This document shows, one piece after another, positions 26,007-60,292 of a DNA stretch of 64,000 bases (positions are counted from its first letter, which is position 1; the number at the start of each line of letters is the position of its first letter). Source of the DNA: Spirosoma sp. SC4-14 (lineage in GTDB: Bacteria; Bacteroidota; Bacteroidia; Cytophagales; Spirosomataceae); the NCBI RefSeq assembly GCF_037201965.1, contig NZ_CP147518.1, positions 557,001 through 621,000 of the forward strand, read 5' to 3'. The position numbers and the translations under genes are program-made. The notes under the pieces are model-generated. The model ran no database searches. It saw only the letters and a program-made list of their open reading frames with translations, and was not told where the DNA came from.

Positions 26007-27626
<1,620 letters not shown>

Positions 27627-27848
27627 TCATTTTCTGGTTGATGAAAACCGGAATGGGTTTGGCAATAAGGTTTTTAGGTTTTGAATTGGCAGAATAGAGC
27701 AAAAACCAAATTTGTACAAAAGCCAGAATACAGAAAAATTTAGCTATAGGATCAACCCTTTCCCGAAGAAATGGGTCTATTTGTTCAGAAAGGAAAATAA
27801 GGAGTCAGTTGGGCTGTAATGGATTCCTGCTTTATATCTATACAGAAT

Positions 27849-27879
27849 TTTGTTGACAACATTTGCACGGGTAGGTTTT
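27849..27879 (+). promoter_or_regulatory. Promoter of the lipoprotein/MNIO locus
   Basis: TTTG at 27849-27852, a 19-base spacer and TAGGTTTT at 27872-27879 fit the Bacteroidota consensus at all but the last base. Predicted transcription start is near 27887, about 70 bases before the lipoprotein ATG. Confidence 0.45.
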
Positions 27880-27956
27880 GTCTAAATATACTGTGAATGA
27901 AACGCCTTACTTATTTTCGATCGGTTTTCAGCGGATTCATAATAAACTGCAATACA

Positions 27957-28112
27957 ATGAAACTTTCCAAAGCTCTTCTCCAGACCATTGCGGTGGCTGT
28001 TGCCGTTACAACGGTTAGTTCATGTGCTAAAACCAAAACAATTAAACCGAAAGAAGCCAAGGCCGAAAAGCAGGAAATTCCTTACAACTGTCCTGCCTGT
28101 GGCATGGGTTAA
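27957..28112 (+). CDS. Small lipoprotein ending CPACGMG, candidate MNIO precursor peptide
   Basis: A 51-residue protein from the ATG at 27957; the frame also opens at 27897, but the later start gives a clean signal peptide. Residues 1-22 form a Sec signal with lipobox VSSC, so mature protein would begin at lipidated Cys23. A Lys/Glu/Ala-rich linker (residues 24-43) follows, then the C-terminus YNCPACGMG with two further Cys spaced CxxC. The stop is 42 bases before a DUF692/MNIO enzyme, whose family modifies Cys-containing precursor peptides. I infer this is its substrate and that the C-terminal Cys are the target. CxxCGM also resembles copper-binding Cys motifs (as in NosL). It could instead be a plain metal-binding lipoprotein. 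Confidence 0.7.
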   Translation: MKLSKALLQTIAVAVAVTTVSSCAKTKTIKPKEAKAEKQEIPYNCPACGMG

Positions 28113-28154
28113 CAACTGCCTTGCAATCAGAAATCTGTTTGTTTAGAAACATAT

Positions 28155-29291
28155 ATGGCGGTTATTCGGTCGTCTATTGCCTGCAATCTGGAGTCGAATG
28201 TATTGGCAGCGTCGATTCCTTTGTTTGAGTCGGAGCGCGTTCAGGCTATTGAGTGGTCGTTCGATACGTTATACCAGCAGGAGCAGCTACCCGAATGGTT
28301 TATTGAATTACTGACAGCATTCGGTCGCGAAAACCGTTTAATTGGTCATGGTGTTTTCTTCTCTCTTTTCTCCGGGAAATGGTTGCCGCAGCAGCAGGAA
28401 TGGCTTGTTTGGCTTAATGCTGTGTCGAATCAGTACACCTTCGATCATATCACCGAGCACTTTGGGTTTCTGACCGGAAAGGATTTTCATCGGGGGGCAC
28501 CACTTAGCGTTCCGTTTACGGCATCAACGCTGGCTTTAGGGCAGGATCGACTCCGCCGATTGCAGCATGCCTGCCAGTGCCCGGTTGGGCTCGAAAACCT
28601 GGCCTTCGCCTATACGCCCGACGATGTGAAAATGCACGGCGAATTTCTGAACCGATTGCTGGAACCCGTCAACGGTTTTATTATCCTTGATCTGCATAAT
28701 TTCTACTGCCAGCTCCATAATTTCAATCTGGCGGTCGATGAATTACTTCGATTATACCCACTCGATCGTGTTCGCGAAATTCATCTGTCGGGTGGGAGCT
28801 GGAGCGAATCGTTAAGTAAACCCGAGCAAAAAATCAGGCGTGACACACACGATGGAGCCGTACCTGCATCGGTTTTCGAATTACTGGAAACAGCCATACC
28901 ACTTTGCCCGAATCTTCGCTATGTAGTGCTCGAACAACTAGGAGTCAGTCTGGCTACCGAAACCAGCCGGGCACAGTTTCAGCGCGATTTTTTCAGGATG
29001 GATGCCATTATCCGGGCCTGTGAACAGCAGCGGAATAAAACGGATCTGCAATTGTTTAGCCCTGGGTTCTTGTTCAATTTCGATCAGACTCCGATAGAAG
29101 ATGATGACCTACACGAGCAGCAGAGAGAGCTTTCGCAGATTCTGGAATCGGCCGATGATTACCAACAGGCGGCCGATCAACTGGCCAAATCCAGTCTGGC
29201 CAATTCCGACTGGCATATAGAATTATGGGAGCCGCACATGCTCGAAACGGCTATTGCCATTGCCCGGAAGTGGAAAAATGGATTTACGTAA
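28155..29291 (+). CDS. DUF692/MNIO-family multinuclear iron oxidative enzyme with C-terminal extension
   Basis: A 378-residue member of the DUF692 family (MbnB, TglH, ChrH, BufB), TIM-barrel enzymes with two or three irons that rebuild Cys residues in precursor peptides. Motifs in order: GHGVFFSL (H65), FDHITEHFGF (D97, E101, H102), GLENLAF (E147), ILDLHNFYCQLHNF (D179, N182, H188), EIHLSGG (H210), RDTHDGAVP (D230, H232) and VVLEQLG (E260); all expected ligand positions look occupied. The usual family length is about 270-300, so residues about 280-378 are extra. This part includes LHEQQRELSQILESADDYQQAADQL, helical and faintly like the start of DUF2063-type partner proteins. No separate partner gene follows. 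Family call is strong; the chemistry done here is unknown. Confidence 0.88.
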   Translation: MAVIRSSIACNLESNVLAASIPLFESERVQAIEWSFDTLYQQEQLPEWFIELLTAFGRENRLIGHGVFFSLFSGKWLPQQQEWLVWLNAVSNQYTFDHITEHFGFLTGKDFHRGAPLSVPFTASTLALGQDRLRRLQHACQCPVGLENLAFAYTPDDVKMHGEFLNRLLEPVNGFIILDLHNFYCQLHNFNLAVDELLRLYPLDRVREIHLSGGSWSESLSKPEQKIRRDTHDGAVPASVFELLETAIPLCPNLRYVVLEQLGVSLATETSRAQFQRDFFRMDAIIRACEQQRNKTDLQLFSPGFLFNFDQTPIEDDDLHEQQRELSQILESADDYQQAADQLAKSSLANSDWHIELWEPHMLETAIAIARKWKNGFT

Positions 29292-29418
29292 GTAGGAGAG
29301 CTAGTCGATTTTGTTCGATAAATCAAATTAATAGGCTGATTCGGAAATAGTTTAGAACACAGCTAGACTTTGGTGGTTAATTTAGGGTAAAGAACATACC
29401 ACCAACACCTAACTGGGA

Positions 29419-31011
29419 ATGCTTCAACAACGTTCGAGTGGCCTGCTGCTTCACATTACATCGCTTCCTTCGGCGCATGGCGTCGGTGATTTAGGGCCGG
29501 AAGCCTATCGCTTTGCCGATTTTTTACACGCATCCGGACAAACCTATTGGCAGATTCTTCCGCTTTCACCAGTCGACCCTGGGGCCGGGTTTTCGCCCTA
29601 TAGCAGTCCATCGGCTTTTGCCGGAAACCCGCTGCTGATTAGCCTGGAAAAGCTGGTTGAGGAAAATTTGTTGAATCAGGACGATTTGTCGGTATTCAAT
29701 GAACTACCCATTCGCGACGTGTCGATTAGTGAAGCGCCAACAGTGTCTAGTGATTCGGCATCGAGTGTGCTGGCAGGGCCACTTATTATTGCTCCCTCTA
29801 CACTTCATGCGGCCTGGATCAAAAAACGACCTTTGCTGCAACTGGCTGCCGAAGCTTTTCTGCAGAATGCAACACCTGCCCAGCGAAGCGATTATGAGCG
29901 GTTTTGCGGCTGGCACGCGGAGTGGCTAAACGATTATGCGCTGTTTACGGCCATGCAGGAACAAACAGGCGAATCGACCTGGATACGCTGGCCGGAAGAC
30001 GTTGTCCGGCGTGACCCCGACGCGCTGGCCAGAGAGACGACGTTGCTCAGGGAGCAGATTGAGGTGACCAAAGTGCTGCAATACTTCTTTTTGCGGCAGT
30101 GGAACGAACTGGTTGCGTATTGCTACGAACGGAAGATTCACATCATTGGCGATATCCCTATTTATGTGCAGTTCAATAGCGCCGATGTCTGGGCAAATCC
30201 GCACCTGTTTAAGCTTGACGATAATTTTCAACCTTTGTATGTAGCCGGAGCTCCGCCCGATTATTTTAGCGAATATGGGCAGCGCTGGGGCAACCCCATT
30301 TACAACTGGGCAGCGCATGAGCAGACGGGCTTTGCCTGGTGGATTCATCGAATACGGCATCAAATGTCGCTCTATAGCCTGACCCGGCTCGATCACTTCC
30401 TGGGCTTTGCCGTTTATTGGGAAATACCCGCCAGCGAACCAACGGCTAAAGTTGGTGAATGGGTAAAGGCACCCATAGAGTCCTTCATGCATGCCATGTA
30501 CCGCCAGTTTGTCCACCTGCCTGTTATTGCCGAAGATTTGGGTACACGTACGGCCGATTTACAGCCCCATTTGCGGCATTATGGCATTCCGGGTATGCGG
30601 GTGATTCAATTTAGCTTTAGCGACGACTTGCCCACATCGACTCATGCGGTTCATAATCATACCGAAAACGTGGTGGTTTATTCGGGAACGCACGACAACA
30701 ATACAACCCTGGGCTGGTATCATGAAGCACCCGAAGAAACTCGCCAAAAACTCGACGATTACTTCGGTATACCCATAACCAGCGACAATGTGGTCGATCA
30801 GGTTTGCCGATTAACGATGCAGTCGGTGGCTCGGCTGGCCATTATACCTGTGCAGGACATTCTGAAACTGGACGAAGCGAGCCGGATGAATACGCCCGGA
30901 TTTGGTGGGCGGAGCTGGCAATGGCGGCTATTGCCTGGCCAACTGACCGACGATGTAGCTGAGCAACTACTTAAATTAACCAAAATGACGGGTAGAGCCG
31001 AAGGTTCGTAA
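29419..31011 (+). CDS. malQ: 4-alpha-glucanotransferase
   Basis: Amylomaltase of family GH77, which transfers alpha-1,4-glucan segments in maltodextrin and glycogen metabolism in the cytoplasm. The 530 residues include RSSGLLLHITSLPS, SPYSSPSAFAGNPLLI, the nucleophile Asp in TRLDHFLGF, the acid/base Glu in VIAEDLGT and SGTHDNNTTLGWY, all intact. It follows the MNIO gene by 127 bases and is probably transcribed separately. It converges on the aldo/keto reductase across a hairpin. Confidence 0.95.
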   Translation: MLQQRSSGLLLHITSLPSAHGVGDLGPEAYRFADFLHASGQTYWQILPLSPVDPGAGFSPYSSPSAFAGNPLLISLEKLVEENLLNQDDLSVFNELPIRDVSISEAPTVSSDSASSVLAGPLIIAPSTLHAAWIKKRPLLQLAAEAFLQNATPAQRSDYERFCGWHAEWLNDYALFTAMQEQTGESTWIRWPEDVVRRDPDALARETTLLREQIEVTKVLQYFFLRQWNELVAYCYERKIHIIGDIPIYVQFNSADVWANPHLFKLDDNFQPLYVAGAPPDYFSEYGQRWGNPIYNWAAHEQTGFAWWIHRIRHQMSLYSLTRLDHFLGFAVYWEIPASEPTAKVGEWVKAPIESFMHAMYRQFVHLPVIAEDLGTRTADLQPHLRHYGIPGMRVIQFSFSDDLPTSTHAVHNHTENVVVYSGTHDNNTTLGWYHEAPEETRQKLDDYFGIPITSDNVVDQVCRLTMQSVARLAIIPVQDILKLDEASRMNTPGFGGRSWQWRLLPGQLTDDVAEQLLKLTKMTGRAEGS

Positions 31012-59206: not shown

Positions 59207-60292
59207 TCAAGGTTCGGGGTCCAGCGCTGAGGGTAGCACTTTGGCAAAACGCTCAGGTGGAAGCTGCTGAATTTGTAGCTGCGACGTATCCCGCTCATCG
59301 TGAATGGGTTTGTATTCGGCAGCCGCCAGCCGCTGACCAAAGCTTGGTTTAATCGTATCGCCCCGGTATTTGTTGGCCGAGATAACCGAACTCCGCGAAA
59401 TTTTGGTTGGGCCTTCGATGACCCAGTCGCTGGTTTTTTTCTTTTCGAAGCGGCAGGTGTTGCAAATAAACTCCGTAACCTCATTCCACTCGTTTTTGCG
59501 AGCCGTTACACGAATCACTTCTTCACCGCGCTCCCAGAGCGTAACTTTCCCCGAACAGGTTGGACAATCGCGGTGAGCATCCACTGGTTTCGAAAACCAA
59601 ACCCGGCTTTTGAACCGGTATGTTTTATCGGTCAGCGCGCCAACCGGGCATACGTCGATAACGTTACCCGAGAAATCGTTGTCGATTGCTTTTTCGATAT
59701 ACGTTCCAATTTCGGCGGCATCGCCCCGTCCCAGCACACCATGAACCCGCTTGTTCGTAATCTGATCGGCAGTGAATACGCAACGATAGCAAAGAATGCA
59801 GCGAGTCATGTGCAATTGCACATAGGGGCCCAAATCGTGTTTTTCGAACGTACGACGATCTTCTTCGTAACGAGTTGTAACTTTTCCGTGATCGAACGCG
59901 AAGTTCTGCAAATCGCACTCGCCAGCCTGATCGCAAACCGGGCAATCGAGCGGGTGATTCAGCAGCAGAAATTCGACAATGCCATTCCGGGCATCAACTA
60001 CCTGCGGGTTGGTTGTATTTTCAACTACCATTCCATCCTGAACGGCCGTCAAACACGACGCAACCAATTTGGGCATTGGCCGCGGGTCTTTTGCCGAACC
60101 GGCAGCTACCCGCACCAGACAAGCCCGGCATTTGCCGCCACTACCTTTCAATGGCTGATAGTAGCACATGGCCGGAGGAGCCACCTCGGGGCCAATCTTG
60201 CGGGCAGCCTGTAAAATGGTCGTACCCGGCTCCACTTCGACTTCTATTCCGTCGATAGTGACTTTCAAGAGTTGCGGCTTTACGTCTTCCAT
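59207..60292 (-). CDS. nuoG: NADH-quinone oxidoreductase subunit G, short form
   Basis: A 361-residue subunit with N-terminal 2Fe-2S ferredoxin domain (CYYQPLKGSGGKCRAC and CLTAV), the His-Cys cluster site HPLDCPVCDQAGECDLQ and a [4Fe-4S] site CILCYRC with CPVGAL. A further four Cys occur as CPTC and CNTC (residues about 225-275). The molybdopterin-like domain of the roughly 900-residue E. coli protein is missing; short NuoG is usual in Bacteroidota. Confidence 0.92.
   Translation of the reverse strand: MEDVKPQLLKVTIDGIEVEVEPGTTILQAARKIGPEVAPPAMCYYQPLKGSGGKCRACLVRVAAGSAKDPRPMPKLVASCLTAVQDGMVVENTTNPQVVDARNGIVEFLLLNHPLDCPVCDQAGECDLQNFAFDHGKVTTRYEEDRRTFEKHDLGPYVQLHMTRCILCYRCVFTADQITNKRVHGVLGRGDAAEIGTYIEKAIDNDFSGNVIDVCPVGALTDKTYRFKSRVWFSKPVDAHRDCPTCSGKVTLWERGEEVIRVTARKNEWNEVTEFICNTCRFEKKKTSDWVIEGPTKISRSSVISANKYRGDTIKPSFGQRLAAAEYKPIHDERDTSQLQIQQLPPERFAKVLPSALDPEP

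Follow-up and report, generated by a model that had tools for sequence, protein, structure and literature searches.

The two-gene locus in the 64,000-nucleotide stretch of the Spirosoma sp. SC4-14 genome analysed here (the window) is very probably, at roughly nine chances in ten (0.92), a stand-alone DybA/DybH-type DAG-RiPP pair. An earlier note had proposed an undescribed class, a claim that is corrected here: the same system, DybA/DybH of Dyadobacter crusticola, has been characterised experimentally according to the accessible portion of a November 2025 preprint (PMC12636315), and the NCBIfam model NF050125 already covers the precursor family. The window thus adds a further Spirosoma example of these lipidated RiPPs. 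The features of the locus are listed in Table 1.

Table 1. Position, strand and basis of the features at the DybA/DybH-type locus (window coordinates).
Feature	Position	Strand	Basis
Segment inserted between atpD and malQ, approximate	27727..29418	+	Gap comparison; left border uncertain (about 27676-27735)
Weak ECF-like promoter candidate, 9.5 bits	27750..27780	+	Matrix; 28 of 500 shuffles as high
Weak second ECF-like promoter candidate, 8.7 bits	27854..27885	+	Matrix
DybA-type precursor gene, 51 aa (NF050125 ChrA_rel_RiPP)	27957..28112	+	ORF reading, NF050125 match
Lipobox VSSC, predicted lipidated Cys23	28014..28025	+	Sequence and script rule
CPACGMG tail, predicted modification site	28089..28109	+	Sequence
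DybH-type MNIO (DUF692) enzyme with C-terminal helices, 378 aa	28155..29291	+	PF05114, identity, model

The precursor ORF, which translates as MKLSKALLQTIAVAVAVTTVSSCAKTKTIKPKEAKAEKQEIPYNCPACGMG, consists of a signal peptide with the lipobox VSSC, a charged linker of 21 residues (six K/R and three D/E) and the C-terminal sequence CPACGMG. ORF reading and the Pfam match of the downstream protein to PF05114 (99.1 bits, cut-off 25) confirm the arrangement given in the earlier note, namely a 51-residue lipobox ORF with this tail and a DUF692 gene that begins 42 bases after it. With 70.2 bits (cut-off 40), the precursor is covered across its length by NF050125 ('chryseobasin-related MNIO class RiPP peptide'). 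An alternative in-frame ATG at 27897 would give 71 residues; the start at 27957 is favoured because of the NF050125 match and the MK-start in relatives. In the genome of the strain itself (8.1 Mb, two contigs), the window precursor is the sole NF050125 match and the window enzyme the only MNIO found. Substrates encoded in trans are rejected, as this genome holds a single CPxCGxG-stop string, the tail of the window precursor.

In a profile alignment of the enzyme to TglH (8hci), the residues E147/N148, D179/H181/N182, H210, D230/H232 and E260 align with their counterparts in the TglH motifs, and none of these columns varies in two alignments of the relatives (A1 and A2), which is consistent with the earlier statement that every metal-ligand motif of the family is present. 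The AlphaFold2 model (pLDDT 89.6, pTM 0.90; 29-sequence alignment) shows strands and helices in barrel-like order, with further helices (317-332, 336-344 and 360-375) after them, and Foldseek ranks TglH (8hci, 8hi7), 3bww and MbnB (7fc0, 7tcr) at the top. The predicted fold is a TIM-barrel MNIO plus C-terminal helices.

According to the accessible portion of the preprint, DybA carries a lipobox Cys and a CPACGMG tail, DybH is active without a partner protein, and the seven-residue tail alone is enough for recognition (PMC12636315). The product is 4 Da lighter and is assigned by NMR as a macrocycle plus a hydantoin, and the N-terminus of DybA is triacylated; such lipidated products are named DAG-RiPPs (PMC12636315). 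The locus of D. crusticola DSM 16708 (L121) is recovered in the scan with A1, and its proteins are orthologous to those of the window, with 58% identity between the enzymes (217/376 columns) and 51% between the precursors (26/51 columns). The two loci agree in gene order, lipobox Cys, tail and the lack of a partner gene; among the ORFs of the segment between atpD and malQ, the precursor and enzyme genes are the only ones of note, and no partner-protein gene lies beside them. They differ in genus, genomic site and linker sequence, and the measured chemistry is that of the D. crusticola pair. In a quick tree of 82 rows, the window enzyme falls with those of Spirosoma, Fibrella, Fibrivirga, Larkinella and three uncultured Bacteroidota (support 91, below the mark of 95), while the Dyadobacter rows form a separate group. 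Two relatives (L113 and L125), whose match continues through a stop (residue 371-372) close to where it finishes, are for this reason left out of the tree; L113 is also left out of A2.

The pairing of the two genes is conserved among the relatives. A contig scan with the single protein returned no loci, whereas the scan with A1 gave 274 confirmed loci, of which the best 80 were kept and named. An upstream ORF with the tail is present in 79 of these best 80 of 274, so the expectation that homologous enzymes would be accompanied by the small ORF is borne out; for the remaining one, a metagenome-assembled genome (L119), there is no precursor within its fetched 7.4 kb. The flanks of the same best 80 of 274 loci contain a single CPxCGxG-stop beyond the interval from -600 to +100 relative to the enzyme start, and it belongs to L114. 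The 91 precursors found in 80 loci, the window included, end in CPACGMG (66), CPGCGMG (13), CPGCGLG (4), CPACGLG (3) or one of five single variants. Only the Pro, Ala/Gly and Met/Leu positions count as independent evidence for the tail, because the search pattern preset both Cys and both Gly; with one precursor taken per locus, Pro is found in 79/80, Ala or Gly in 79/80 and Met or Leu in 80/80. Across 582 of 600 sampled pairs, pairwise identity averages 0.93 in the tail, a value raised by the pattern requirement, 0.58 in the signal peptide and 0.33 in the linker. The tail is thus kept while the linker drifts, as had been anticipated. A lipobox-like Cys is called by the script rule in 79 of 80 precursors; in the one miss (L123) the script started from a Met that lies too far upstream, and inspection by eye shows the box.

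Co-inheritance is also evident in genome samples. The enzyme occurs in 8 of 36 genomes of the genus and in 6 of 395 genomes of a phylum sample, the own genome being included in both counts. A loose tail pattern matches 57 of the 395 genomes, and by eye only five matches give CPxCG[ML]G directly before a genuine stop; the five genomes concerned are all among the six with the enzyme (hypergeometric probability 8e-11, or 5e-9 without the own genome). In an earlier set of 13 enzyme loci, 12 have the tail; this set comprises eight loci of the genus, the own included, and five more of the phylum sample, and its genomes partly overlap those of the named set. Taken on the sequence evidence, the earlier proposal of a two-gene MNIO RiPP-type system with a lipoprotein precursor and the Cys tail as the likely modification site is supported. 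The sixth enzyme genome (L016/L163) has a split arrangement, with ORFs at 123-371, 401-1279 and 1272-1529: the upstream ORF is divergent and ends in GACGMG with one tail Cys only, the enzyme has 292 residues, and the following ORF of 85 residues resembles, by eye, the missing C-terminal part. This contig may be a contaminant in the assembly. Its layout is similar to that of the cyanobacterial MelA1/MelH/MelHc, which shares the tail motif and a published -4 Da change with the present type but differs from the window in its 34 kDa substrate and its separately encoded C-terminal domain (PMC12636315, accessible portion).

Several variations are seen among the relatives. Two precursor genes precede one enzyme in 11 of 80 loci with precursors (L054, L061, L071, L080, L084, L101, L102, L104, L106, L107 and L125). 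Nine precursors from eight loci (L051, L060, L063, L071 with two, L078, L083, L093 and L100), several of them from Saprospiraceae or unclassified Bacteroidota, have a further linker motif, C-x3-C-x2-(D/N)H, in addition to the lipobox Cys and the tail; this motif could be a metal site or an extra modification site. Variant tails lie further upstream of the enzyme in L071 (CIACGRG, 462 bp), L106 (CITCGRG, 1022 bp) and L114 (CPACGRG, 1385 bp); these loci also have a normal tail, and the variant ORFs may be decayed copies or variant substrates.

A comparison of the genomic site reveals that the pair sits in an insert. Of 35 other genomes of the genus, 29 yielded malQ loci for comparison, and atpD (named by sequence) lies beside malQ (named by Pfam) in 28 of them; there the two genes are 259-337 bp apart without an MNIO in between, whereas 1882 bp separate them in the window. 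The sole compared congener without atpD next to malQ (L153) has a transposase-like ORF, so named by sequence, at 256-1041 upstream of malQ. Similarity to the short gaps fades at about 27676-27735 and resumes at the malQ start (29419), somewhere before which the right border lies, and the extra DNA therefore comprises the gene pair with its upstream region. Insertion between atpD and malQ would be a simpler reading than loss in all 28 congeners. In five genomes with the short gap (G006, G007, G010, G028 and G035) the pair is sited elsewhere, and the pairs of eight Spirosoma genomes occupy at least four different neighbourhoods. Additionally, a complete pair is carried on a 330 kb plasmid of Hymenobacter volaticus, near ParA and replication genes, with an enzyme 59.9% identical to that of the window; among 125 matching plasmid records, this one alone has at least 80% enzyme coverage, and it is typed non-mobilizable. 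A search of phage records gave no match.

A widely conserved neighbour is lacking. When ORFs of at least 100 aa are counted around 81 loci (the window and the 80 named relatives, the best 80 of 274), the largest family, SusC/TonB-like by sequence, occurs at 14 loci, and the next two at 11 and 9; a SusC background over 49 genomes, scored on at most 13 candidates per genome, speaks neither for nor against the remark on SusCD in the accessible portion of the preprint. The same text also mentions a prolyl oligopeptidase for the S. endophyticum cluster (PMC12636315; here L158, by sequence). Among ORFs of at least 80 aa, no counterpart of that peptidase is found in the window's neighbourhood or in the other six Spirosoma neighbourhoods compared. 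The words promoter, horizontal and synteny are absent from the main text of PMC12636315, and the insertion site, the varied neighbourhoods, the plasmid copy and the shared promoter-like element go beyond what its accessible portion reports.

The earlier placement of both genes under one promoter is plausible, but no sigma-70-type site is present in 27550-29450 and the best ECF-like match upstream is not significant. When upstream regions of 160 bp are compared, 37 of 91 contain an element of the form CAAC[ACT]-N15-18-[GA]TC[TA], against 2.6 on average and at most 7 in 200 shuffles, 1/91 on the reverse strand and 3/77 downstream; the window's own row in this count is not independent, because the pattern was widened after the window sequence had been seen. 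The boxes of this element (AAC-like and CGTC-like) we take to resemble ECF-sigma promoters. A matrix trained on 40 sequences passes 35 of 39 held-out real sequences versus 7 of 39 shuffled ones, and 75% of all 79 relatives versus 18% of shuffles, rates that overstate its strength because the sequences, being related, are not independent observations; low scores are seen in most Chitinophaga rows. The matrix is also unspecific within the window, where 15 other positions on the + strand and at least 19 on the - strand score as high as the candidates in Table 1 or higher. Matches of 18.5-20.1 bits, far above those candidates, lie at 60058 (+), 5350 (-) and 37453 (-).

The nearest rival is a chryseobasin of the ChrA/ChrH kind, in which the tail would also be S-methylated (+10 Da) and the peptide secreted via signal peptidase I. 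ChrA/ChrH of Chryseobacterium shares with the window the tail motif and the enzyme subfamily with a C-terminal helical domain (PMC10214503, accessible portion), among NCBIfam models the enzyme matches ChrH (NF050165) best, and the accessible portion of PMC12636315 describes one homologue that yields a mixture of -4 Da and S-methylated products, so that the sequence by itself is compatible with S-methylation. However, the window enzyme reaches 373.9 bits and that of D. crusticola 385, both below the ChrH cut-off of 600, whereas L014 and L015, both ChrH-type loci from the phylum sample, attain 663 and 693 and group apart in the tree (97). The window precursor obtains 10.5 bits on the ChrA model NF050124 (cut-off 50), which the L014 precursor passes. 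This split in scores, taken with the precursor scores, assigns the pair to the DybA/DybH type. ChrA is, moreover, longer and without a lipobox, and belongs to a larger operon with an S-methylated product (PMC10214503, accessible portion), whereas the window precursor has a lipobox and the next gene downstream is malQ, not chrI, chrE or chrP. A chryseobasin is thus improbable.

Still less probable is a metal-binding peptide resembling bufferins or methanobactin, although the enzyme superfamily and the Cys-containing tail would suit it and the accessible portion of PMC12452194 reports lipoprotein signals on some bufferins. Bufferins (BufA/BufBC) have in common with the window an MNIO enzyme and a signal peptide on the precursor, but carry a thiooxazole on an internal Cys and involve a partner protein. 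The window enzyme scores 80.5 bits on the BufB model NF050167 (cut-off 310) and 12.5 on the MbnB model TIGR04159 (cut-off 325), and the product of the orthologue is described as lacking the thiooxazole or oxazolone absorbance of the methanobactin or bufferin kind (PMC12636315, accessible portion). Binding of copper or another soft metal, which the earlier note raised as a possibility, is unsupported by these data. An ordinary zinc-ribbon-like lipoprotein that merely lies beside an unrelated MNIO would account for the zinc-finger and rubredoxin-like matches in the Pfam/NCBIfam profile search, all of which are sub-threshold. The recurrence of the pair in 79 of the best 80 of 274 loci, the confinement of the tail string to enzyme genomes in the 395-genome sample and the presence of both genes in one insert make it the least credible of these explanations.

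For the preferred DybA/DybH-type pair, the chemistry and lipidation demonstrated for D. crusticola (PMC12636315, accessible portion) suggest how the product would be made. By homology, the iron enzyme would act in the cytoplasm, where it would oxidise the CPACGMG tail by four electrons with O2 (-4 Da). The tail would then contain a hydantoin ring and a macrocycle linking its two cysteines, with one free thiol and no methyl group. Sec export and diacylglycerylation of Cys23, the lipidation site predicted by the script rule, would follow, then cleavage before Cys23 by signal peptidase II and, probably, N-acylation. The mature peptide would stay anchored in the membrane, its charged linker carrying the modified tail at the far end.

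The authors of the preprint call the function of DybA/DybH unknown (PMC12636315, accessible portion). With no widely conserved neighbour and varied sites, the product may work alone at the membrane, and our guess is a role in the envelope for which no gene nearby is required. The lack of a conserved neighbour, the occurrence of the pair as a unit in varied places and the recurring ECF-type element point to a self-sufficient role in the envelope. A broader view, which we hold only tentatively and consider rather unlikely, is that DybAH pairs are autonomous, nomadic envelope modules that move across chromosomes and plasmids without a partner, often with an ECF-type promoter of their own, are induced by envelope stress and act alone. 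If this is true, these bacteria would make a lipidated macrocycle on envelope stress that acts without a neighbouring transporter or protease.
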